Assembly: GCA_001803635.1 (NCBI GenBank)
Contig: MHDU01000038.1
Span: forward strand, 1 to 64,000
DNA length: 64,000 bases
Origin: Nitrospirae bacterium GWB2_47_37
Lineage (GTDB): Bacteria > Nitrospirota > Thermodesulfovibrionia > Thermodesulfovibrionales > Dissulfurispiraceae
Direction: 5' to 3'
In this document: positions 1 through 11,645 of the stretch, in pieces
Layout of the letters: each line of letters begins with the position of its first letter
How positions within the stretch are numbered: the stretch's first letter is position 1
The notes under the pieces: generated by a model
The model's input: the letters and a program-made list of their open reading frames with translations, nothing else
What the model was told of the DNA's origin: nothing
Database searches by the model: none
Translations under genes and position numbers: made by a program

Positions 1-761
1 AACAGGCGCAGTTGACTTTCGGCATATATCCATACGATAACCCGTCAAAGATCTATCAGGACTTTGAGCCTTTATTGAGGCATCTATCGCGGGAAACGGG
101 AATAAAAGTAAAACTGATTGTGGCTCCTAACTATATCTCCAGTGTCAGAAATATCGGTGAAGGCAAAGCGGACATCGCGTTCATGGGGCCTTCGCCTTAT
201 ATAAGGGCGCAAGACAAGTTCGGAGGGGTAGAGCTTCTGGCAAGGCTTATAATGCGGGATAACAGGATAGACAGCATGGTGATTATAGCGCATAAAGACA
301 GCGGCATTAAGTCGCTTAGAGATATGAAAGGAGGAACATTCGCTTTCGGCGATCCTCAGTCATACGGAAGTCATTTTTATCCGCGTTATCTTTTAAGCAG
401 AGCCGGAGTTAAACTTAAGGATTTGAAATATTACGATTATCTCGGCAGCCACTCAAGAGTTATACTTGCGGTAGCTCACCGTGATTTCGATGCGGGCGGG
501 GTCAGGGAGGACATTTATGAAAAGTATAAAGGGCGTCCCATAAGGGTCATCGCGGGTCCCTTTCCTATTCCCCCTCATGTAATCGTATGCAGAAAAGAAT
601 TACCTGCTGAACTTAAGACAAAACTGAAAAAGGTCCTTTTAAAGGTTAAGGATAAAGCGGTACTGACCGGCATAGACCCTGAATTCATCGGATTTTCTCC
701 TGCAAAAGACGCGGATTTTTTACGGGCCCGGGAAACGGTTAATTTTATAGAAGGCATATGA
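1..761 (+). CDS. PhnD/TtrS-type periplasmic substrate-binding protein (5' end missing)
   Basis: The reading frame is open from the first base, and the first visible residues (QAQ then LTFGIYPYDNP) look like the end of a signal peptide followed by the mature start of a PhnD-family binding protein, so the true start lies before the window. Family features are the GIYPY start, a GKADIAFMGPSPYIRA segment and a GGTFAFGDPQSYGSHFYPRYLL segment that line the ligand cleft in this family. The stop overlaps the start of the kinase at 758, so the two are translationally coupled. No permease or ATPase gene is visible, which suggests a sensing partner rather than a transporter. PhnD-like domains form the sensory part of TtrS/ThsS tetrathionate and thiosulfate kinases; a sulfur oxyanion ligand is therefore my inference. 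Confidence 0.85.
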   Translation, partial: QAQLTFGIYPYDNPSKIYQDFEPLLRHLSRETGIKVKLIVAPNYISSVRNIGEGKADIAFMGPSPYIRAQDKFGGVELLARLIMRDNRIDSMVIIAHKDSGIKSLRDMKGGTFAFGDPQSYGSHFYPRYLLSRAGVKLKDLKYYDYLGSHSRVILAVAHRDFDAGGVREDIYEKYKGRPIRVIAGPFPIPPHVIVCRKELPAELKTKLKKVLLKVKDKAVLTGIDPEFIGFSPAKDADFLRARETVNFIEGI

Positions 762-2482
762 GCATAAAAAGGGATTTCTATAAAAGACTCAGTTTTATTG
801 TGATGATCTCAGCGGTGATTATCAGCGCGGTCGCTATTGTCGCAGAGCGCAATATAGTCCTCGACGATATGAAAGATAAAGGAGACTCGATAGCGAGAAT
901 GCTTTCTGCGGTCGCCAGAGACTCTATGCTTACCCATGATTATGTAACTATGGAAAGGTACGTCATGGAAGCGGTCAACGACAAAAATATAGAGTCGCTG
1001 AGAATTATCCGCAGCGACGGTGAGATTCTTGCGGAGGCCGCGACAAAAAGACGGGCAACGGCGGAAAATTACCGGCTGCAATATCCCATAGCGATGGGAG
1101 AGTCCAGTCTCGGCACGATAGACATAAGCTTCTCGATGGAGAGGGTTAATTCCATATCGAAGAGGATAATAATATCCGCCGTTATATTCATAGCGTTTGT
1201 ACACGGCTTTGCGCTCATTGTTAACAATATTATCATCAACAAACTGATAATCATTCCTGTCAGATCGCTCATGCAGGCGACAAAATCCTTGAGGGACGGC
1301 AGTCTGAGAAACCGTATAGAGATCCGCTCTGAAAATGAGTTCGGGGAACTGGCGTCTGCTTTTAATGATATGGCGGCTACGCTTGAGAGCAATTTTGAAG
1401 AAATTAAAGCGAAACAGAAAGAGATATTTACGGAAAAAGGCAAGTTCGAGGCCATTGTAAAAAGCCTTGCCGACGGGCTTTTCGTTACAAACAGCGATGG
1501 CTTGATCGTTTCGTTTAACCGTGCCGCGGAGATGATAACAGGATACGGCGAGAAGGAGACGATAGGCCTGCACTGCGAAGATGTATTCAAAACAAGGCTT
1601 TGCGAAGACGCTTGCGCATTGCATAATGAAGACAAAACGATAAGCGCTAAAGAGAGCGAAATTATTACAAAAGGCGGAAAGAGACGCGTTGTCTCCGTGA
1701 GTTCGGCAATAATCAGGGACAGGGACGGCAGGGTTCTCGGCGGGGTGCAGACATTCAGGGATATAACGGAGGAAAAACACCGGCAGGCGATGCTGTGTCA
1801 GGCTGAAAAACTCGCCGCAATAGGCCATCTTTCGGCAGGTCTTGCCCACGAGATTAATAATCCCATAGGCAATGTTGTCGGATATGCGAAACTCCTGCTA
1901 AGGGACGCCTCTCTTAATGAGAAACAAAGGGAAAGGCTCGACATAATATCCGAGCAGGCTGAGAAGGCCGGGGGGATTGTTCAGGGGCTTTTAAATTATT
2001 CAAGACGGCAGGAATCGAAAATGGAAAGGACTTTCATAAACGGCGCGGTAGAGAGCGTCGTTAAAGTTGTTTCACTGCAGGCTGAAAAAAGCAATATAAA
2101 GATCGGCGTCGATCTGAAAGATGTCCCGGCTGTAAAGGCCGATCAGAGACAGATGGAGCAGGTCTTGTTTAATATTATCCTTAACGCCGTTCAGGCTATA
2201 GGCTCGGACGGTTCCGTCCTGATCCGGACAGATGAAACGGATGACGGTTTTGTGGAAGTTCGGATAGAGGACACGGGTCCGGGGATTCCGGAGGAACATA
2301 TTCACAAAATATTCGACCCGTTTTTTACGACAAAACCGGTTAATAAAGGAACCGGATTAGGACTGTCCGTATGTATGGGTATAATCAGGGAGCATAAAGG
2401 GTTTATAGAGGTGGAGAGCGAGTACGGGAAAGGGTCCGCGTTTATTATAAAACTGCCTGTAATGGAGGATGAAAATGCTTGA
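758..2482 (+). CDS. Membrane sensor histidine kinase, HAMP-PAS-HisKA-HATPase
   Basis: 574 aa. A transmembrane helix (about 12-29), a periplasmic stretch of about 105 residues and a second helix (about 137-158) are followed by HAMP (about 160-215), PAS (about 228-340), HisKA with the phospho-acceptor His364 in AHEINNP, and a HATPase domain with DTGPGIPE and GTGLGL boxes. The PAS domain carries three cysteines (C273, C282, C286), which could bind a metal or react with sulfur or redox signals; that is inference. The ATG overlaps the stop of the binding-protein gene and the 3' end overlaps the response regulator, so the three genes form one unit. It probably phosphorylates the regulator encoded next and reads ligand binding by the upstream periplasmic protein. 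Confidence 0.93.
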   Translation: MSIKRDFYKRLSFIVMISAVIISAVAIVAERNIVLDDMKDKGDSIARMLSAVARDSMLTHDYVTMERYVMEAVNDKNIESLRIIRSDGEILAEAATKRRATAENYRLQYPIAMGESSLGTIDISFSMERVNSISKRIIISAVIFIAFVHGFALIVNNIIINKLIIIPVRSLMQATKSLRDGSLRNRIEIRSENEFGELASAFNDMAATLESNFEEIKAKQKEIFTEKGKFEAIVKSLADGLFVTNSDGLIVSFNRAAEMITGYGEKETIGLHCEDVFKTRLCEDACALHNEDKTISAKESEIITKGGKRRVVSVSSAIIRDRDGRVLGGVQTFRDITEEKHRQAMLCQAEKLAAIGHLSAGLAHEINNPIGNVVGYAKLLLRDASLNEKQRERLDIISEQAEKAGGIVQGLLNYSRRQESKMERTFINGAVESVVKVVSLQAEKSNIKIGVDLKDVPAVKADQRQMEQVLFNIILNAVQAIGSDGSVLIRTDETDDGFVEVRIEDTGPGIPEEHIHKIFDPFFTTKPVNKGTGLGLSVCMGIIREHKGFIEVESEYGKGSAFIIKLPVMEDENA

Positions 2483-3812
2483 GATTCTCGTTATAGACGA
2501 TGACATGCGCATGAGGCAGCTTATAGAAGAGATACTCACAGAGGAAGGGCATAGCGTTACGGCTATCGGGGACAGCCGCGAGGCGATGCTTATGCTTAAG
2601 GAAAGGCATTACGACCTCGTTGTCACGGACCTGAAAATGCCTTACGCGGACGGCATGGAAATACTCGCCTACGCAAAAAAAATAAATCCGGAATGTCTTG
2701 TGATAATGATCACGGCTCACGGCACAATCGAGTCGGCTATCGAGGCGATAAAGAAAGGGGCATATGATTATATCCAGAAACCTTTTGGCCCGGACCAGCT
2801 GCTTGTCCTTGTACAGAGGGCGGAGGGGCATATAAAGCTGATCCATGAAAACAAGAGGCTCTCCGAAGAGGTCAGAAGTTTTACGGAGACCGGTTTTATC
2901 GGCACAAGCAGAAGCATTGAAAAGATAAAAGACCTGATAGAAAAGGCCGCCCCGCTTGACACGACAATATTGATTCAGGGCGAGACGGGAACCGGCAAAG
3001 AGCTTGTTGCGCGTCTTATTCATAAGAAAAGCACGAGGTTTCAAAATACATTTCTTCCGGTCAACTGCGGCGCGTTGTCGGAGGGTATTCTCGAGTCCGA
3101 GCTTTTCGGGCATGAAAAAGGGGCATTCACCGGCGCAATGAGCCGGAGAAAAGGGCTTTTTGAAACGGCAAACGGAGGCACGGTATTTTTAGACGAAATA
3201 AACAACACATCGCCTTCGATGCAGGTAAAGCTGCTGAGGGTCTTGCAGGAAAATACAATCATGAGGGTGGGCTCGTCGATGCCCGTGCCGGTAGATGTGA
3301 GGATTGTCGCGGCATCGAACACAAATCTCGCGGAAGATGCGGCGGCAGGCCGATTCAGAAAGGATCTCTTTTACAGGCTCAATGTCGTTGCCGTAGACAT
3401 ATCTCCTTTGCGGGAGAGAAGGGAAGACATACCGCTTCTTGCTCATCATTTCCTTAATAAGTACGGGAAAAAGTTTAATAAAGAGATAAGCCGGTTCAGC
3501 CCGCATGCCATGGAGATTTTATCCGTTTATGCATGGCCGGGTAATGTGAGAGAGCTTGAGAATGTAATGGAGAGAACGGTTATCATGGAAACTTCTTCGG
3601 AAATAACCCCGCAATCGCTTCCGTCCGAAATCAGGGGTGAACCCCCCGATCCTCTTTCTTGTATCGGCCTTATGACGCTTGATGATATGGAGAAGTTTCT
3701 GATACAGCGGACTCTTCGAGAGCTTGAAGGGCAGAAGAATAAGGCGGCGGAAGCGCTCGGGATAGATGTATCTACGCTCTGGAGAAAGATAAAGAAATAT
3801 AATATCGAGTAA
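2475..3812 (+). CDS. NtrC-family sigma-54-dependent response regulator
   Basis: 445 aa from the ATG at 2475. That start is preferred over the ATG at 2469 because the GGAGG at 2464-2468 is then spaced 6 nt away. The receiver domain has acidic residues 8-10 and phospho-acceptor Asp52 in TDLKMP. The AAA+ domain has Walker A GETGTGKE (169-176), the sigma-54 contact loop GAFTGA (216-221) and Walker B VFLDEI. The C-terminal Fis-type helix-turn-helix ends ALGIDVSTLWRKIKKY. It overlaps the kinase gene by 8 bp. The paired palindromes and -24/-12 promoter immediately downstream (3819-3921) suggest it activates the UGA-containing rhodanese gene that follows. Confidence 0.95.
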   Translation: MLEILVIDDDMRMRQLIEEILTEEGHSVTAIGDSREAMLMLKERHYDLVVTDLKMPYADGMEILAYAKKINPECLVIMITAHGTIESAIEAIKKGAYDYIQKPFGPDQLLVLVQRAEGHIKLIHENKRLSEEVRSFTETGFIGTSRSIEKIKDLIEKAAPLDTTILIQGETGTGKELVARLIHKKSTRFQNTFLPVNCGALSEGILESELFGHEKGAFTGAMSRRKGLFETANGGTVFLDEINNTSPSMQVKLLRVLQENTIMRVGSSMPVPVDVRIVAASNTNLAEDAAAGRFRKDLFYRLNVVAVDISPLRERREDIPLLAHHFLNKYGKKFNKEISRFSPHAMEILSVYAWPGNVRELENVMERTVIMETSSEITPQSLPSEIRGEPPDPLSCIGLMTLDDMEKFLIQRTLRELEGQKNKAAEALGIDVSTLWRKIKKYNIE

Positions 3813-3818
3813 AAATAT

Positions 3819-3849
3819 TTGCATTTTGCAAGGGCATTGTAAAATGCAA
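3819..3849 (+). promoter_or_regulatory. Tandem palindromes, likely activator binding sites (UAS)
   Basis: Two 13-bp palindromes lie here: TTGCATTTTGCAA at 3819-3831 (perfect, arms TTGCA/TGCAA) and TTGTAAAATGCAA at 3837-3849 (one mismatch). Their centres are 18 bp apart and the second centre is about 64 bp upstream of the -24 element. That geometry fits upstream activating sequences for the activator encoded just before them. The binding assignment is inference. Confidence 0.6.
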
Positions 3850-3905
3850 AGCCTGCCGTATCGTTTGATCGATCCATAATCCTTAAAATTCAAAGCATTT
3901 TTTCC

Positions 3906-3921
3906 CGGCACAGTATTTGTA
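3906..3921 (+). promoter_or_regulatory. Sigma-54 (-24/-12) promoter
   Basis: CGGCACA-N4-TTGTA matches the sigma-54 consensus TGGCACG-N4-TTGCW with exact spacing: the -24 element is 3906-3912 and the -12 element 3917-3921. It is 36 bp upstream of the start at 3957, and AAGGAGG (3943-3949) lies between them. The preceding activator gene supports the call. Confidence 0.65.
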
Positions 3922-3956
3922 TTGAATAATGAAAAAAGATCTAAGGAGGTTTGTAT

Positions 3957-5327
3957 ATGAAGAAGGTTTTAAACATTATCGCCTCGCTGATTGCCGTTGC
4001 CGCCCTGACTGTTACAGCAGGAAACGCACAGGCAGCAGACGGCAAAAACACAATTCAGCCTTTATGTGCTCAATGCCATAAGGCGGAAAACAATGTGATC
4101 ATAGGCACTGTTGTGCCCGGCTCGCAAATGAACGGGAGTTCATTTAAAGTACAAACAGGCGGAACGGTCTGGGATGTCAGCTATGACAAAAGCACAAAGA
4201 TGAAAAAAATGAGGACGGCTAAAGAGTTTCCTAACGATGAAGGGGTAAAGATCAAGATAGCTTCGGTTAAAGGGAATCAGGCTTACGCGGAGGAAATGAG
4301 CTATAAACCGTCTTATAAATTTAAAAATCCCGACGATATAATTTCGGTAGGAGAGGTGGCGGAACTTCTCAAAAACAAGCCTACTAAAGACGGCGACTGG
4401 GTGTTATTCGACTCCAGAGGTTATGACAACTATATAGAAGGGCATTTACCGGGAGCCGTTTTGCTGCCTTATTACGAAATGGCTGCTTATATGGACAGCC
4501 TGCCGAAAGATAAAAATACATTAATTGTGTCCTATTGCCGGGGTGGAACATGAGGCATGAGCCCTCACTTTACCCGTGTGGTAACGGAGTTGATGGGTTA
4601 TAAAAACGCTAAGTATATGCTTGCCGGTCATAAAGTATGGGAAGAAGCGATGTATCCATGGTACACCGAGCCCGAATTCGTAAAAATGGCGATTGACGAA
4701 GATATACCGCATATTTTAGTTGATTTGAGGAGCGAAGAAAAAGCTAAGAGAGAACAGATACCCGGCGCCTTCAATTACGCATCAAATCAGATTAAAGAGT
4801 TATACCAAAATCTGCCTAATGATAAAAAGAAGACGAGAGTTATTCTTTACTCCGATAACAATGAAGAAGCCGTTAAGGCGTATTCGGCTCTCAAGGCGAA
4901 TATGTATGAGATGGTATCGATTTTAAACGGCGGCATAGATGCATGGAAGGCAAAAGATTATCCGGTCGAAAGCAATAAGATCAGAAAAGAAATGCCTAAC
5001 GCCCTTCCGGCCAAACTGCTGCCGGGAGCGATAAGCACGGCAGAATTCAAAAAGCTGGCTCTTAATATTCCTCCGGATACCGTTATTTTTGATGTCAGGA
5101 GCCCGGACGAATATCTTAGCGGCGCGGTTCCGGGAGCCCTGACGGTTCCTATTGCGACAATAATTGCGGGACGATGGAATGAAATACCGCAGGATAAAAA
5201 AGTGGTCATACACTGCGCCGCAGGCAACCGTGCGCTGCAGGTATGGCGCTTCATGAAAAATAAGGGATATAACAATATCGTATGGGTCGACGGGAAACCG
5301 CCTAAGGAAGTTTTAACGCAAAAATAA
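3957..5327 (+). CDS. Exported haem c/triple-rhodanese protein, candidate selenoprotein (in-frame UGA at 4551-4553)
   Basis: Read through the UGA this is 456 aa. A signal peptide (about 1-28) is followed by one c-type haem motif CAQCH (37-41), a linker domain, and three rhodanese domains (about 130-235, 240-340, 355-456). UGA is codon 199. It lies five residues after Cys194 in the first rhodanese, giving C-R-G-G-T-U-G-M-S. Many rhodaneses of this subtype have C-x-G-x-x-C-x-x-S here, so UGA falls where homologues carry a second cysteine. The frame continues with clean rhodanese sequence and the ATG after the UGA lacks a ribosome-binding site. Domain two has Tyr-Ser-Asp instead of the catalytic Cys and is probably inactive. 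Domain three keeps CAAGNR with Cys420. The start at 3957 is set by AAGGAGG. A nonsense mutation or sequencing error is the alternative. Confidence 0.75.
4565..4589 (+). promoter_or_regulatory. Candidate bacterial SECIS hairpin just after the UGA
   Basis: Arms TTACC (4570-4574) and GGTAA (4580-4584) close a five-base loop CGTGT. An outer CTC (4564-4566)/GAG (4587-4589) helix sits beyond a small internal loop. The loop G-U starts 23 nt after the UGA, inside the range usually quoted for bacterial SECIS elements. The stem is short, so this supports the selenocysteine reading but does not prove it. Confidence 0.45.
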
Positions 5328-5419: not shown

Positions 5420-6349
5420 ATGGTTTTAAAAATATTGTTTTTAGTTATAGCATCGTTTATGGTGTGGGCATCCGCTGCCGGAGCCATCGAGGTTGTCGAA
5501 GCCGAATGGCTCAAAAATAACCTTGAAAACAAAAATATTATAATCGTAGAGGTGCCTGAAAAGGCGGAACCTATCGCAGGCGAACACAAAGCGGGCGTAA
5601 TGCACATTCCCGGCACCGTTGTGGCCAACAGGTATCTCGACCTCGGCAACACATCAGTCGTGCCGCCTACTCTCTATCCTTCAAAAGAGCAGTTCGAAAG
5701 GCTTATGTCGAGGCTCGGCATAGATGAAGACACGACGGTCGTTGCCTACGACGACAAATTCGGCCTCTTCGCGAGCAGGCTGCTTGTAATAATGGAATAC
5801 TACGGGCATGATACGAATAAGTTAAAGCTTCTAAACGGGGGGATTGTCAATTGGAAAAAACTCGGCTATCCGCTCTTTGACGGGCATCGCGAGGTCAAGC
5901 GCACAAGCTATAAGGTGGAAAAAGCAAATCCGATACTCCTTACATGGAGCGATATTTACAGGGATGTAGTGCGCGGCGGAAGGCATGATGTAGTATTGGT
6001 TGATGTGAGGCCTGCCGATGAGTATAGCGCAAAGAAGATACGCTCGATAAGAGGCGGTCATATACCCAAGGCAATAAATGTTACGGGAACGGATGCAAAC
6101 GATAAACAGACGCATATGTTTAAGTCTGTAGATGAGATTAAGAAGATGTTTGAGGCAAAGGGTATAAAAGGCGATAAGGCTATATACGAGTATTGCCACA
6201 GCGGCGACCGCTCTGCGCATGCCTATATAATCCTGAAATACATTATCGGATATAAAGATGTAAAGGTGTATGACGGTTCATGGATTGAATGGTCGACAAT
6301 TCTTTCCCTGCCCGCTGAAGGTCAGGTCTGGTATATAGAGCAGAAATAA
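5420..6349 (+). CDS. Exported tandem-rhodanese thiosulfate sulfurtransferase
   Basis: 309 aa with a signal peptide (about 1-22, cleavage near AGA-IE) and two rhodanese domains, SseA/TST-like. The first domain (about 25-150) has Tyr-Asp-Asp where the catalytic cysteine would be and is the usual non-catalytic half. The second (about 175-300) has the active loop CHSGDRS with Cys259. The predicted role is transfer of sulfane sulfur in the periplasm. GGAGG precedes the ATG. It follows the UGA-containing rhodanese by 92 bp in the same direction and is probably co-transcribed from the sigma-54 promoter at 3906. Physiological donor and acceptor are unknown. Confidence 0.92.
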   Translation: MVLKILFLVIASFMVWASAAGAIEVVEAEWLKNNLENKNIIIVEVPEKAEPIAGEHKAGVMHIPGTVVANRYLDLGNTSVVPPTLYPSKEQFERLMSRLGIDEDTTVVAYDDKFGLFASRLLVIMEYYGHDTNKLKLLNGGIVNWKKLGYPLFDGHREVKRTSYKVEKANPILLTWSDIYRDVVRGGRHDVVLVDVRPADEYSAKKIRSIRGGHIPKAINVTGTDANDKQTHMFKSVDEIKKMFEAKGIKGDKAIYEYCHSGDRSAHAYIILKYIIGYKDVKVYDGSWIEWSTILSLPAEGQVWYIEQK

Positions 6350-6472: not shown

Positions 6473-7600
6473 ATGCTTGATGGCCTTTCTCAAATTTTTT
6501 TCCTTAACCTTGCGTTGGGCGCAATCTTGGGCTTTGTATTCCACAGGTCAGACCTTTGCATGGCAGGGATGTTCAGGGATATCTTTCTGCTCAAACGCAC
6601 GTTCTTATTAAGGATTCTTTTTTTGCAGGTAGTTGTTACGATGGTATTCTTTTTTATCGCAAAGAAGTTAGGACTTATCGGCCTGTATCCCCCTCCGAAC
6701 CTCGGTTTAGCATCATTAGGAACCATTATGGGAGGCATAGTATTCGGAGCCGGTATGGTATTGGCAGGCGGCTGCGTAATGGGGACTCTCTACAAAATGG
6801 GGTCGGGAAGTATTATCAGCATTATCGCCTTTGCCGGTCTCATAATAGGGAGCGCGATTTTTGCGGAGTTTTATCCCGCATGGTTACAGATCACCAAAAA
6901 GACCGCCGTATCGGAGGCCGTGCTTTTATCCCAGCTTGCCGATGAGAATCTTCTCACAATACCCGTTTTGATTTTTTCATCGATCATTATTCTCAGATGG
7001 ATAAACCTCAAAAAACTATCTCAAAAGGCTTATGCGGAGGGGTATATCGATCCTTGGAAAGTCGCTATTATAATTGCCGTTTTGAATCTTATCATATATC
7101 TAAGCTCCGACATGCCGATGGCTGTCAGCACCGGATACGCAAAGATCGCCGCATATATCGAAAAGGCGCTGATTCCTGAGCATTTTGACACGGTAGCCTT
7201 TTTTGGAAAAGAATCATACTCGGTTCTGCATCCGGTCAGCAAGGCCGCAATTGTCGGCGGTCCTATGGCCGTGTTTGACCACATGTTCGCCACCGAAATT
7301 TCACTTATCATCGGGGTTGTCCTCGGCTCTTTTATATCGGCAATCATGCTGGGGGAGTTTAAACTGACCCTAAGCACGTTCCCTCCCCCAAAACAGAATG
7401 TTTCCGCCTTAATGGGTGGCATGCTACTTGCTTTAGGTTCAAGGATGGCAGGGGGGTGTAATGTAAAGTTCCTTATGAGCGGTCTTCCCCTGCTTTCCAT
7501 TCAGGCGTTCCTGTTCGTTTTCGGGATGCTTCCGGGCGCATGGATAGGAACTTATTTGTTCAAGAAATTTGTTATAAGCTATGACAGGGAGGGGCAGTGA
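6473..7600 (+). CDS. YeeE/YedE-family sulfur-compound (thiosulfate-type) permease
   Basis: 375 aa, very hydrophobic, with about nine to ten membrane segments arranged as two YeeE repeats. Three family cysteines are visible: Cys29 in HRSDLCMAGMFRD, Cys101 in GGCVMG and Cys329 in GGCNVKF. In the structurally studied thiosulfate transporter YeeE (TsuA), three cysteines at similar places pass thiosulfate by S-H-S hydrogen bonds. The predicted job is import of thiosulfate or another sulfane-sulfur compound. The next gene is a TusA-like protein starting inside its stop codon (TGATG), a pairing typical of YeeE/TusA. GGGGAAG precedes the ATG. Confidence 0.9.
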   Translation: MLDGLSQIFFLNLALGAILGFVFHRSDLCMAGMFRDIFLLKRTFLLRILFLQVVVTMVFFFIAKKLGLIGLYPPPNLGLASLGTIMGGIVFGAGMVLAGGCVMGTLYKMGSGSIISIIAFAGLIIGSAIFAEFYPAWLQITKKTAVSEAVLLSQLADENLLTIPVLIFSSIIILRWINLKKLSQKAYAEGYIDPWKVAIIIAVLNLIIYLSSDMPMAVSTGYAKIAAYIEKALIPEHFDTVAFFGKESYSVLHPVSKAAIVGGPMAVFDHMFATEISLIIGVVLGSFISAIMLGEFKLTLSTFPPPKQNVSALMGGMLLALGSRMAGGCNVKFLMSGLPLLSIQAFLFVFGMLPGAWIGTYLFKKFVISYDREGQ

Positions 7601-7878
7601 TGACGGATAAAATAGAGATCAATCTCGATACAATTAACCTGGATATTCGCGGGCAGATATGTCCAGCCTGCCTGCTCATTTCTTTAAAGGAAATAAACAA
7701 ACACAAGGAGACTTTAAGGTGCAGGGGTGCTAACCTCGTTGTAAAGACAGACCACAGGGATGCCACACGGACTATCCCCGATGCGGCTACCGCAATGGGA
7801 TATACGGTTTCTGTAGAAAAGAAAAAGGGATATTATGAGATTACGGTAGGACTGGAACATGAAGGCCGGCAGGCATAA
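7600..7878 (+). CDS. TusA-family sulfur carrier with CPAC in place of CPxP
   Basis: 92 aa. The fold signature is TusA/SirA: LDIRGQICPACLLISLKEIN at the N-terminus and a conserved D-H-x-D-A strand. The sulfur-carrying cysteine is Cys21. The otherwise near-invariant second proline of CPxP is replaced by Cys24, giving Cys-Pro-Ala-Cys, a thioredoxin-like spacing that could allow a disulfide or persulfide exchange (inference). The ATG at 7600 overlaps the permease stop and GGGAGGGG lies just upstream; the in-frame GTG at 7597 is less likely. It overlaps the next kinase gene by 20 bp. It probably accepts sulfur from the permease next to it. Confidence 0.88.
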   Translation: MTDKIEINLDTINLDIRGQICPACLLISLKEINKHKETLRCRGANLVVKTDHRDATRTIPDAATAMGYTVSVEKKKGYYEITVGLEHEGRQA

Positions 7879-9157
7879 CAACCGTACATACCCGACGGCG
7901 GGAACGGAAAACGTAGAAGGAAAGAACACGGTTCTGCTTCGGTACATAAGGGACAAGGTAAACCAGTTGCTGCAGATTATGGGCACAAAGCCCCTGAGGG
8001 AAGAGGAACTCAACGATGAAAGCCTTATTGCTATCGATCCCATCGGCATCATCGCAGAATCATTCGAGCAGGTGCTCGAGCACCTGAAGGAGAGTAACAG
8101 ACAGTTGCAGCTTGCGCGGGATTATCTTCAGGCGGTCTTTGATACCGCAGGTGTGGGCATATCCATTATCGACAGGGACATGAGAATCATCAAATGCAAC
8201 GAGAAGCAAAAAGAACTTCTTGCAAACGGCATCGCCTTGATAGAAGGCAAACATTGTTATGAGGTCTATTGCGGAATGGATTCTCCGTCGCTTATGTGTC
8301 CTGCCATAGAGACTCTGGAAACGGGGCGGGCAGTCATGTTAAAGGAAGTGACCAAAAAGGGCAGGGTGTTTCAAATCGCCACGTCTCCGCTGAAAGATAA
8401 GAGCGGAGATATTATAGGGGTTGTAGAAGTAAATATGGATATAACGGAAAAGAAAAGGGCGGAAGATGCAATGTGCCAGTCCGAAAAACTTGCCGCCGTC
8501 GGACAACTTGCGGCAGGTATCGCCCACGAATTGAACAATCCTCTCGGCAATATTCTCGGTTACGCAAAACTTCTCCTTATGGATGAAAACCCCTCGGAAC
8601 CCCAGAGGGAGAGAGTGAAGGTAATTGTAGAGCAGGCAAAAAAAGGAAGCGGGATTATAAAAAGTCTTCTGGAATTTTCGCACCAAAAGATGCCTGTTTT
8701 TGAGAAGATTTCCATAAATACCTGCATAGAACAGGCGCTGCAATCCCTACACGGAGAGACTGAAGGCATTAATATAGAGATATCAACGAGACTCGGAGAT
8801 GTCCCTCATATAATGGCCGATCCGAAACAAATGGAGCAGGTCGTCTACAATATACTCCTAAATGCGGTGCAGTCTATGGAAGGAAGGGGCGGCACCGTTG
8901 AGGTAAGTAGCGAGTCCGCGAACGGTTCGGTGGAGGTCACCATAAAAGATGACGGTCCCGGCATACACCGGGAGCATTTGTGCAGGATTTTCGAGCCGTT
9001 CTTTACTACAAAGCCCGTAGGTAAAGGCACGGGGCTCGGTCTAAGCATATGTTCCGAGATATTGAAGAAACACGGCAGTAATATACGCGTCGAGAGCGAA
9101 AAGGGCAAAGGCGCCAAGTTTTATTTCAGACTAAAGGACGGTATTCCCGATGTTTGA
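7859..9157 (+). CDS. Soluble PAS-containing sensor histidine kinase
   Basis: 432 aa with no membrane segment. A helical N-terminus (about 20-90) leads to a PAS domain (about 88-200), HisKA with His223 in AHELNNPL, and HATPase with DDGPGI and GTGLGL boxes. The PAS domain has a cysteine set C133-x4-C138-x8-C147 similar in place to that of the kinase at 758, so a cytoplasmic redox or sulfide/persulfide cue is plausible (inference). The gene overlaps tusA upstream by 20 bp and the response regulator downstream by 8 bp. Its partner is the activator encoded at 9150. Confidence 0.92.
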   Translation: MKAGRHNNRTYPTAGTENVEGKNTVLLRYIRDKVNQLLQIMGTKPLREEELNDESLIAIDPIGIIAESFEQVLEHLKESNRQLQLARDYLQAVFDTAGVGISIIDRDMRIIKCNEKQKELLANGIALIEGKHCYEVYCGMDSPSLMCPAIETLETGRAVMLKEVTKKGRVFQIATSPLKDKSGDIIGVVEVNMDITEKKRAEDAMCQSEKLAAVGQLAAGIAHELNNPLGNILGYAKLLLMDENPSEPQRERVKVIVEQAKKGSGIIKSLLEFSHQKMPVFEKISINTCIEQALQSLHGETEGINIEISTRLGDVPHIMADPKQMEQVVYNILLNAVQSMEGRGGTVEVSSESANGSVEVTIKDDGPGIHREHLCRIFEPFFTTKPVGKGTGLGLSICSEILKKHGSNIRVESEKGKGAKFYFRLKDGIPDV

Positions 9158-10487
9158 TATCCTGGCGATAGAAGATGACCTGAGGATGAGGGAACTCCTG
9201 AAGGAGATATTGAGTAGGGCCGGCTGTTCCGTATTTACGGCGAAGAACGGAGAGGAAGGTCTTGACTTCCTTGAGAGAAGGACATTCGACCTTGTAATCA
9301 CGGATCTTAAAATGCCGGACATAGACGGTATTACTATCCTCTCGAAGGCAAGGGAGTTTAATCCGGAGGGTCTTGTAATTGTAATCACCGCATACGGCAC
9401 AGTGGAATCCGCCATCGAGGCTATGAAATTAGGCGCGTATGACTACATACAGAAACCCTTCGAACCCGAGGAACTCATGCTGGTCATAAAGAAAGCGCTG
9501 GACTATAAAAGGCTTGCCGATGAAAATTTAAGGCTCTCGAGCCAGCTTGAGTCGTGCAAGGCAGAGGAGATGATAGGCGCAAGTCCCCGCATTACGGAAG
9601 TAAAAAGGCTTGTCGATAGAATTGCGCCGCTCGACATTACCGTAGTCATAGAGGGAGAGACCGGGACGGGGAAAAATCTTGTAGCTAAGACAATTCACAG
9701 GATAAGCAAAAGGGCATCAGGAAAATTCCTGAGCATAAACTGCGGTGCATTGACGGAAACCCTTCTCGAATCGGAGCTCTTTGGACATGAAAAGGGCGCC
9801 TTTACCGGAGCCGTAAAACAGAAGCACGGACTTTTCGAGGCAGCGCATGGAGGCACATTGTTCCTCGATGAGATAAACAGCGCGAGCCCCGGAATGCAGA
9901 TAAAACTCCTAAAAGTTCTGGAAGACGGAATGATCATGAGGATCGGCTCTACCGAAACGGTTCCCGTGGATGTCCGCATTATTGCCGCAAGTAATATACT
10001 GCTCAAAAAGGAGATAGATGAAAGCAGGTTCAGGCAGGATCTGTACTACCGCCTTAAGGTAGTGACTATTACAATGCCTTCGTTGAGGGAAAGGCGGGAC
10101 GATATACCGTTGCTGGCGCACCATTTCCGCGACAGGTATCGCGGGAAATTCAGTAAAGACATTACAGGTTTCACAACGGAGGCGATGGATGCGCTTCTCA
10201 CATACGATTGGCCCGGCAATGTCAGGGAACTGGAGCACGTTATCGAGAGGTCCGTAATCTTAGAATATGGAAAGAAGATAGATATTTCTTCCCTTCCGGC
10301 GGAAGTCGTATCCCGCCCGAGAGAGATATTATCGCCGAAGGGCATCGTAAGGCTCGAAGACATGGAAAGACAGTTAATCCAATCAGCATTGAGGTTCTTT
10401 AACGGTAAGAGGGATTCTGCTGCACGCGCATTAGGCATCAGCCATGCTACGCTTTGGAGAAAGGTTAAGAAGTATAATCTCGATTAA
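9150..10487 (+). CDS. NtrC-family sigma-54-dependent response regulator
   Basis: 445 aa, clearly paralogous to the regulator at 2475. The receiver has Asp52 in TDLKMP. The AAA+ domain has Walker A GETGTGKN (169-176), GAFTGA (216-221) and VxLFLDEI-type Walker B. The Fis-type helix-turn-helix ends ALGISHATLWRKVKKYNLD. The start overlaps the kinase gene by 8 bp. The recognition helix differs from the paralogue (SHATLWRK against DVSTLWRK), and the palindromes immediately downstream differ accordingly (10515-10545). It should activate the perfect sigma-54 promoter at 10589 and the long sulfur-transfer operon behind it. Confidence 0.95.
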   Translation: MFDILAIEDDLRMRELLKEILSRAGCSVFTAKNGEEGLDFLERRTFDLVITDLKMPDIDGITILSKAREFNPEGLVIVITAYGTVESAIEAMKLGAYDYIQKPFEPEELMLVIKKALDYKRLADENLRLSSQLESCKAEEMIGASPRITEVKRLVDRIAPLDITVVIEGETGTGKNLVAKTIHRISKRASGKFLSINCGALTETLLESELFGHEKGAFTGAVKQKHGLFEAAHGGTLFLDEINSASPGMQIKLLKVLEDGMIMRIGSTETVPVDVRIIAASNILLKKEIDESRFRQDLYYRLKVVTITMPSLRERRDDIPLLAHHFRDRYRGKFSKDITGFTTEAMDALLTYDWPGNVRELEHVIERSVILEYGKKIDISSLPAEVVSRPREILSPKGIVRLEDMERQLIQSALRFFNGKRDSAARALGISHATLWRKVKKYNLD

Positions 10488-10646: not shown

Positions 10647-11645
10647 ATGAAGGGGAAGACATTAGTATTGATGATGATCGCTGTCTTTATGGCTATTTCC
10701 GTAAATGCCTACGGATGGGCGAATCCGGATCTTTTAATGAATCCCGATGATGTGGAAAGGATTGCAACGAAACCGGACTGGGTAATCCTTGACTGCCGCG
10801 GCAAAGATGCATACGGGAAAGAACATATTCCGGGTGCCATAGTCCTCGATTGCAGAAAGGACCTGAGAGATGGGACAGAGAGGATATCGAAGCCTGCGCA
10901 GCTCGAAAAGATATTGGGGAATGCAGGCATCAGTAATGACAAGCATGTTGTTGTATATGGAGATGCAAAGCAGATTGTTCACGCATCTGTCGGATTCTGG
11001 ATACTTGAATACATGGGCCATGATAAAGCCCATTTCCTCGATGGCGGTCTTACTGAATGGAAAGCGGCTGGGAAACCTGTAACGGCAGAGCCGAAGACGC
11101 TGCCTCCGGCAACATTTAAGGCCAATGTTGTTTCATCCAGGTATGCTCCAACAGAGGAGATGTTAAAGATTGCAAAGGGAGAGACAAAAGGTATTCAGGT
11201 TATAGATGCGAGGACGGAAAAGGAATACGCCGGTAAGGAATCCCGCTCCTTAAGGGGAGGGCGTATTCCCAATACAACCATAAATGCATCCCACGACATC
11301 ACGTATGACAAACGCACGGGAAAGATACTTCCGGAGAAGTTCTTAGCAGGAAAATTCTACGGCAATCTGGATAAGAGCAAGAGGACAATAGGCTTGTGTC
11401 AGACAGGTTCCCGTTCAACGCTCACATACCTTCAGTTGAGGCTGCTGGGCTTTAAAGATCCCGCGAACTATGACGATTCATGGATTGTGTACGGCAGCAG
11501 CGTATATCCGCCGTATCCGGTGGAAAACGAGCAGTGGATTAATATGGAAGGCCTTGTGAAGATGAGCGCAGACATCAAGAAGCTGAAAAAAGAGATTGAA
11601 GACCTGAGAAAAGAGTTAAAGCTTCCGCCGAAAGAAGGAAAGTAA
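10647..11645 (+). CDS. Exported tandem-rhodanese sulfurtransferase with C-terminal coiled coil
   Basis: 332 aa. The signal peptide covers about 1-25 (ANA-type cleavage is unclear; AYGWA-NP is likely). Two rhodanese domains follow: the first (about 30-145) lacks a catalytic cysteine (VVYGDAKQ), and the second (about 165-290) has CQTGSRS with Cys251. A charged coiled coil (about 304-328, MSADIKKLKKEIEDLRKELK) ends the protein and may mediate oligomerisation. GAGGAGG lies 8 nt before the ATG. It is the first gene after the sigma-54 promoter at 10589 and heads the operon to 15849. Role: sulfane-sulfur transfer outside the inner membrane. Confidence 0.92.
   Translation: MKGKTLVLMMIAVFMAISVNAYGWANPDLLMNPDDVERIATKPDWVILDCRGKDAYGKEHIPGAIVLDCRKDLRDGTERISKPAQLEKILGNAGISNDKHVVVYGDAKQIVHASVGFWILEYMGHDKAHFLDGGLTEWKAAGKPVTAEPKTLPPATFKANVVSSRYAPTEEMLKIAKGETKGIQVIDARTEKEYAGKESRSLRGGRIPNTTINASHDITYDKRTGKILPEKFLAGKFYGNLDKSKRTIGLCQTGSRSTLTYLQLRLLGFKDPANYDDSWIVYGSSVYPPYPVENEQWINMEGLVKMSADIKKLKKEIEDLRKELKLPPKEGK

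Follow-up and report, generated by a model that had tools for sequence, protein, structure and literature searches.

Results

Gene structure and product

The best overall explanation of our data is that the gene at 3957-5327 encodes a selenoprotein, an exported triple rhodanese with a proposed Cys194/Sec199 site, and we hold this reading with very high confidence. The gene lies in a 64,000-nucleotide stretch of contig MHDU01000038.1 from Nitrospirae bacterium GWB2_47_37; the whole stretch is referred to below as the window (Table 1). Comparison of related sequences strongly supports the reading of UGA 4551-4553 as selenocysteine (Sec, U). On the basis that this UGA stands beside the catalytic Cys of an exported sulfur-transfer protein and that both the codon and the hairpin downstream of it recur in more than 50 related genes, we regard the Sec reading as almost certain.

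The frame runs from ATG 3957 to TAA 5325-5327 (456 residues), and TGA 4551-4553, at residue 199, is its sole interruption. The original prediction had described two in-phase frames split by one TGA, had read the whole as a haem c/triple-rhodanese protein and had denied a ribosome-binding site to the downstream ATG. These points held: the product has a predicted N-terminal signal peptide, a CxxCH motif and three rhodanese stretches (PF00581, 147 bits versus a Pfam gathering score of 22.2), and no usable ribosome-binding site precedes ATG 4557. By its CxxCH in an exported protein, the product classifies from sequence as a putative c-type cytochrome, and CxxCH (or Cx4CH) occurs in nearly all family members, being missing from L066, L069 and L070 among 31 aligned sequences. 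In the same alignment residue 199 is invariant when UGA is read as Cys; domain 2 lacks a catalytic Cys at the equivalent position. Cys194 lies five residues ahead of U199 in the local sequence Y193-C194-R-G-G-T-U199-G-M-S202. An AlphaFold model of the product (pLDDT 83, pTM 0.71) places C194 immediately after a strand and residue 199 immediately before a helix, an arrangement that normally frames the catalytic loop of a rhodanese.

Table 1. Positions of the selenoprotein gene, its elements and its neighbours in the window.
Feature	Position	Strand	Remarks
PhnD-like periplasmic binding protein (Phosphonate-bd), probable sensor input	12..761	+	conserved upstream of orthologues
Sensor histidine kinase (HAMP, PAS, HisKA, HATPase)	758..2482	+	
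NtrC-type sigma-54 response regulator	2469..3812	+	upstream in G025 too
Palindrome TTGCATTTTGCAA-GGGCA-TTGTAAAATGCAA, probable activator site	3819..3849	+	kept in G030 and G007, paired changes in G007
Sigma-54-like promoter CCGGCACAGTATTTGTA	3905..3921	+	consensus match only
Ribosome-binding site AAGGAGG	3943..3949	+	7-nt spacing to ATG 3957; aligned in G030 and G007
Periplasmic triple-rhodanese gene, predicted to contain Sec	3957..5327	+	456 residues with U199; 56 UGA genes are homologous over the full length
CAQCH, single haem c attachment motif, residues 37-41	4065..4079	+	within exported N-terminal segment
Codon of Cys194, catalytic-loop Cys of rhodanese domain 1	4536..4538	+	invariant in 31 aligned sequences
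UGA codon with strongly supported Sec reading, residue 199	4551..4553	+	aligned codon also UGA in paralogue and relatives; several homologues have Cys there
Bacterial SECIS-type hairpin	4568..4586	+	stem 4568-4574/4580-4586 (one mismatch), loop 4575-4579 CGUGU, conserved G 4576
Codon of Cys420, catalytic-loop Cys of rhodanese domain 3 (HC-AAGNRA)	5214..5216	+	invariant in alignment
Second exported two-domain rhodanese (SseA-like)	5420..6349	+	
YeeE/YedE (TsuA-like) sulfur transporter	6473..7600	+	below curated cut-offs
TusA-family sulfur carrier	7597..7878	+	

Sec and Cys exchange among homologues

A paralogue elsewhere in the source genome (C15:30033-31316; 33% identity) carries UGA precisely at the codon that aligns with UGA 4551-4553 (YCAGPTURLS). 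Homologues were found in 42 of 120 related genomes, most of them with one in-frame TGA, and in the loci examined the conserved TGA encodes the fifth residue after the catalytic Cys (C-x4-U). A phylum-wide search added further members from other families of the phylum, and a search of plasmids and viral contigs yielded no full-length relative. When the single 3957-5327 protein was used to search contigs, one close orthologue alone was recovered, the patterns being too specific.

The original prediction had aligned the UGA with a homologous Cys in the context C-x-G-x-x-C-x-x-S. Just such a Cys stands at the U199 position of L028, L030, L034, L046 and L058, and likewise in L100, with T in place of S; L059 and L066_1 have a Cys within a loop shorter by one residue, and L051 and L067 have Gly at the Sec position. 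On a tree of the family (midpoint rooting only) Sec is spread over all branches with at least six Sec/Cys changes, and Cys is found mostly at the tips, which suggests that Sec is probably the ancestral state in this family here. One relative, L072 (G004:C102:4828-5532), has UGA both at the catalytic Cys and at the +5 position (FYUGGYHUAF), which argues that the two loop residues are coupled; a perfect SECIS hairpin follows its second UGA, and its frame is broken between domains 1 and 2.

A conserved hairpin downstream of the UGA

The hairpin that follows the UGA has GU at 4576-4577 of its loop. With the T of TGA numbered 0, the stem joins positions 17-23 to positions 29-35, and the 5-nt loop that it closes has G as its second base. 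We scored the inner five pairs together with the loop G and took as null the same proteins recoded with synonymous codons. This pattern was present in 33 of 38 UGA genes, compared to 3.4 expected on average from recoding. With the rule unchanged, an independent set, the 18 additional UGA genes that the phylum-wide search had supplied, gave 17 versus 1.6 expected. Pooled, 50 of the 56 UGA genes have the pattern (about 5 expected from synonymous recoding) versus 1 of 10 non-UGA homologues, with a Fisher p of about 1e-6 that serves as a guide only, the sequences being related. Moreover, 97% of the stem cells are paired, versus 43-56% when the 3' arm is slid, and 29 cells are changed on both sides (compensatory). 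The slid arms and the synonymous null are the informative controls; shuffling of columns left 91% still paired and is uninformative, since most columns are conserved.

The window hairpin taken alone is not significant (fold z -0.89; synonymous-null probability 0.14), and its significance derives from the family comparison. Thus, of the hairpin with G-U in its loop that had been proposed from this one sequence, the existence is confirmed by the family comparison, but the folding of the single sequence did not bear it out. A scan of the window against Rfam at the gathering threshold gave no match, as expected for bSECIS elements.

Selenium machinery in the source genome and its relatives

The Sec machinery on which the original prediction depended is all found in the source genome (2.47 Mb, 81 contigs, 98.45% complete): selA, selB (391 bits versus a curated cut-off of 242), a tRNA-Sec with UCA anticodon and selD (323 bits versus 125). 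As a side observation, this selD (L022, G000:C44:18111-19025) is itself a selenoprotein gene, with an in-frame UGA near its N terminus (RAAGUAAKM).

Among the 120 related genomes 109 have selA, and of those with UGA genes selA is missing only from G029 and G097. The G029 genome is 80% complete and has selB. In G097 neither selA nor selB was found in the presence of a UGA gene, which is evidence against the Sec reading. This gene, L062 (G097:C6:17178-18377), has lost domain 3, its sequence diverging ahead of the catalytic Cys of that domain. The missing selA and selB and the lost domain suggest decay or an assembly fault. In favour of the Sec reading, both selA and selB are absent from G080, which has a Cys homologue, and from G006, which has a Gly homologue; G018, likewise with a Gly homologue, has selB and no selA.

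Neighbourhood and probable regulation

Genes for the PhnD-like protein, the histidine kinase and the sigma-54 response regulator lie upstream of the selenoprotein gene in the window and in G030, G007 and G023, and the regulator does so in G025 too. The gap that separates the response regulator gene from the selenoprotein gene holds the palindrome and the sigma-54-like promoter; in two orthologous loci (G030 and G007) the promoter keeps the same distance to the start codon, 50-52 nt. We propose that expression is probably under the control of the adjacent PhnD-like/kinase/sigma-54 regulator set.

The downstream SseA-like, YeeE and TusA genes point to sulfur metabolism, but we take them as no more than a hint because neither the SseA-like rhodanese nor the YeeE/TsuA-like transporter nor TusA was found beside the orthologues searched. 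Around the loci of more distant members we looked for conserved partner genes and found none, and a fixed operon with YeeE/TusA was dropped for this reason. Further downstream in the window, a second histidine kinase/sigma-54 response regulator pair (7859-10487) is followed by a third rhodanese gene (10647-11645). In G039 a multihaem cytochrome c gene lies immediately downstream of a UGA-rhodanese (L127:10573-12459).

Proposed function of the Cys/Sec site

In the mechanism that we propose, SelB bound to the hairpin at 4568-4586 would bring Sec-tRNA(UCA) to UGA 4551. The product would be exported and would probably have one haem c attached at C37-x-x-C40-H41. It would fold into three rhodanese domains; the catalytic loop of domain 1 would have Cys194 at one end and Sec199 at the other, and domain 3 would retain an ordinary catalytic Cys420. 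In the likeliest course of events, Cys194 would accept sulfane sulfur from a periplasmic donor (for example polysulfide, thiosulfate or a persulfide), and Sec199 would then attack the persulfide or make a Cys-Se bond. The sulfur would be released reductively or passed to domain 3, with electrons perhaps supplied via the haem; selenium species could be the substrate in place of sulfur. Our reading is that the Cys/Sec site would work in the periplasm, either transferring or reducing sulfane sulfur (or selenium) and possibly with a link to the haem, and that the Cys/Sec pair might be unusually reactive.

Alternatively, the selenoprotein could have a redox or detoxification role rather than one in sulfur transfer, the Cys/Sec pair reducing peroxide, selenite/tellurite or arsenate, and we consider this a serious possibility, though one that we rather doubt. 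Rhodanese loops in which five residues separate Cys from Arg are known from Cdc25/Acr2-type reductases, and many family members share the motif C-x-G-x-T-U-R; the Arg after U, however, is not a conserved residue, and the window protein has Gly in its place. The weak profile matches to the rhodanese ExtH of a selenite/tellurite operon and the similarity of many predicted selenoproteins to thiol oxidoreductases (PMC9312934) also favour such a role, whereas the neighbours in the window are sulfur genes (YeeE, TusA, SseA-like).

Other readings of the UGA codon

That UGA 4551 is a true stop, leaving either a pseudogene or two proteins made by re-initiation at ATG 4557, is very improbable. The standard genetic code, the ATG immediately after the TGA and the use of TGA as an ordinary stop elsewhere within the window would fit a stop, but the same UGA recurs in the paralogue and in dozens of relatives, the hairpin is conserved, and a start codon after the UGA is lacking from most homologues, where the sequence is mostly TGA AGG CTN AGY. 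Furthermore, dN/dS versus the nearest orthologue is 0.07 before the TGA and 0.09 after it (rough values, synonymous sites being near saturation), which indicates that both halves are under purifying selection.

A Cys codon (TGC or TGT) turned into TGA by faulty sequencing or assembly, by which the original prediction could have failed, is excluded for practical purposes: homologues with Cys do exist, but the identical codon is found in dozens of independent assemblies, including those of the nearest orthologues at 82% and 73% identity. Reassignment of UGA to a different amino acid, Trp for example, or non-specific read-through, for which we found nothing in favour apart from the open frame, is just as far-fetched, because TGA is the ordinary stop of 9 of the 36 long ORFs in the window, excluding a general change of code, the aligned residue is Cys and not Trp, and the Sec machinery is complete.

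Discussion

Rhodanese selenoproteins are already known, in the UxxS form of Geobacter and in the UxxxxU form of TsoB, and the kind is not new. We tentatively suggest, with confidence somewhat short of even, that the genes described here form a separate, unnamed selenoprotein family of exported, haem-c-tagged triple rhodaneses, in which the Cys-x4-Sec loop (Sec-x4-Sec in one relative) would serve a selenium-assisted reductase of sulfane sulfur or selenium and Sec would be ancestral in the phylum. Rhodanese selenoproteins have stood on lists as computer predictions for twenty years, and in the literature examined we found no report of their biochemical function. Within this large family one catalytic loop occurs naturally with Sec, with Cys, with Gly and with two Sec residues, which provides ready comparisons for asking why selenium is used in a sulfur-transfer enzyme, and why outside the inner membrane near a possible haem. 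Genomes across the phylum probably have these genes annotated as two truncated proteins.

Comparison with known rhodaneses and rhodanese selenoproteins

The window protein stays below the cut-off of every curated NCBIfam model. The best fold matches are the multi-domain rhodaneses 1yt8, EanB and YnjE in the PDB, which likewise have repeated rhodanese domains; the likeness is at the level of the fold (14-20% identity), and, judged by their descriptions, these proteins differ in having no Sec and no haem motif. The rhodanese selenoprotein WP_010941598.1, which we take to be a Geobacter sulfurreducens protein, was predicted from a UGA and a bSECIS, as here. Its U-x-x-S agrees with U199-G-M-S202 at the level of the motif, and it may belong to the same family as the window protein. 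Rhodanese-domain selenoproteins are an established predicted kind, with five forms in the table of PMC13188914, where WP_010941598.1 is form 1 (PF00581, UxxS) and is credited to Zhang & Gladyshev 2005.

ExtH, the rhodanese of a Geobacter selenite/tellurite operon (NF040901; PMC5877670), is similar as a rhodanese-like protein encoded beside multihaem cytochromes; its profile gives marginal matches in 4 of the 31 members and none for the window protein at E 0.001. Form 3, the rhodanese-related (seleno)protein NF041203, likewise has Sec near the catalytic Cys of a rhodanese, but two residues after it (CxU) and not five (CxxxxU) as in the window family; the window protein scores 73 bits versus a cut-off of 115, with the best match in domain 2.

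TsoB, form 5, is a rhodanese/DsbD fusion-like selenoprotein with UxxxxU (NF045694; PMC13188914). Nothing in the source genome scores above its cut-off. The TsoB profile also matches a short rhodanese-like sequence that is interrupted by one TGA and one TAA (G000:C73:6436-6774) and may be either a further UGA gene or a remnant. Domain 1 is matched by the profile in all 31 aligned members, with every score far under the cut-off of 805 bits and the window protein at 50 bits. Unlike TsoB, the window family has no DsbD part, and the first loop position is normally Cys. The spacing of two chalcogen residues within a rhodanese domain is nonetheless the same, and the G004 relative matches the U-x4-U of TsoB exactly.
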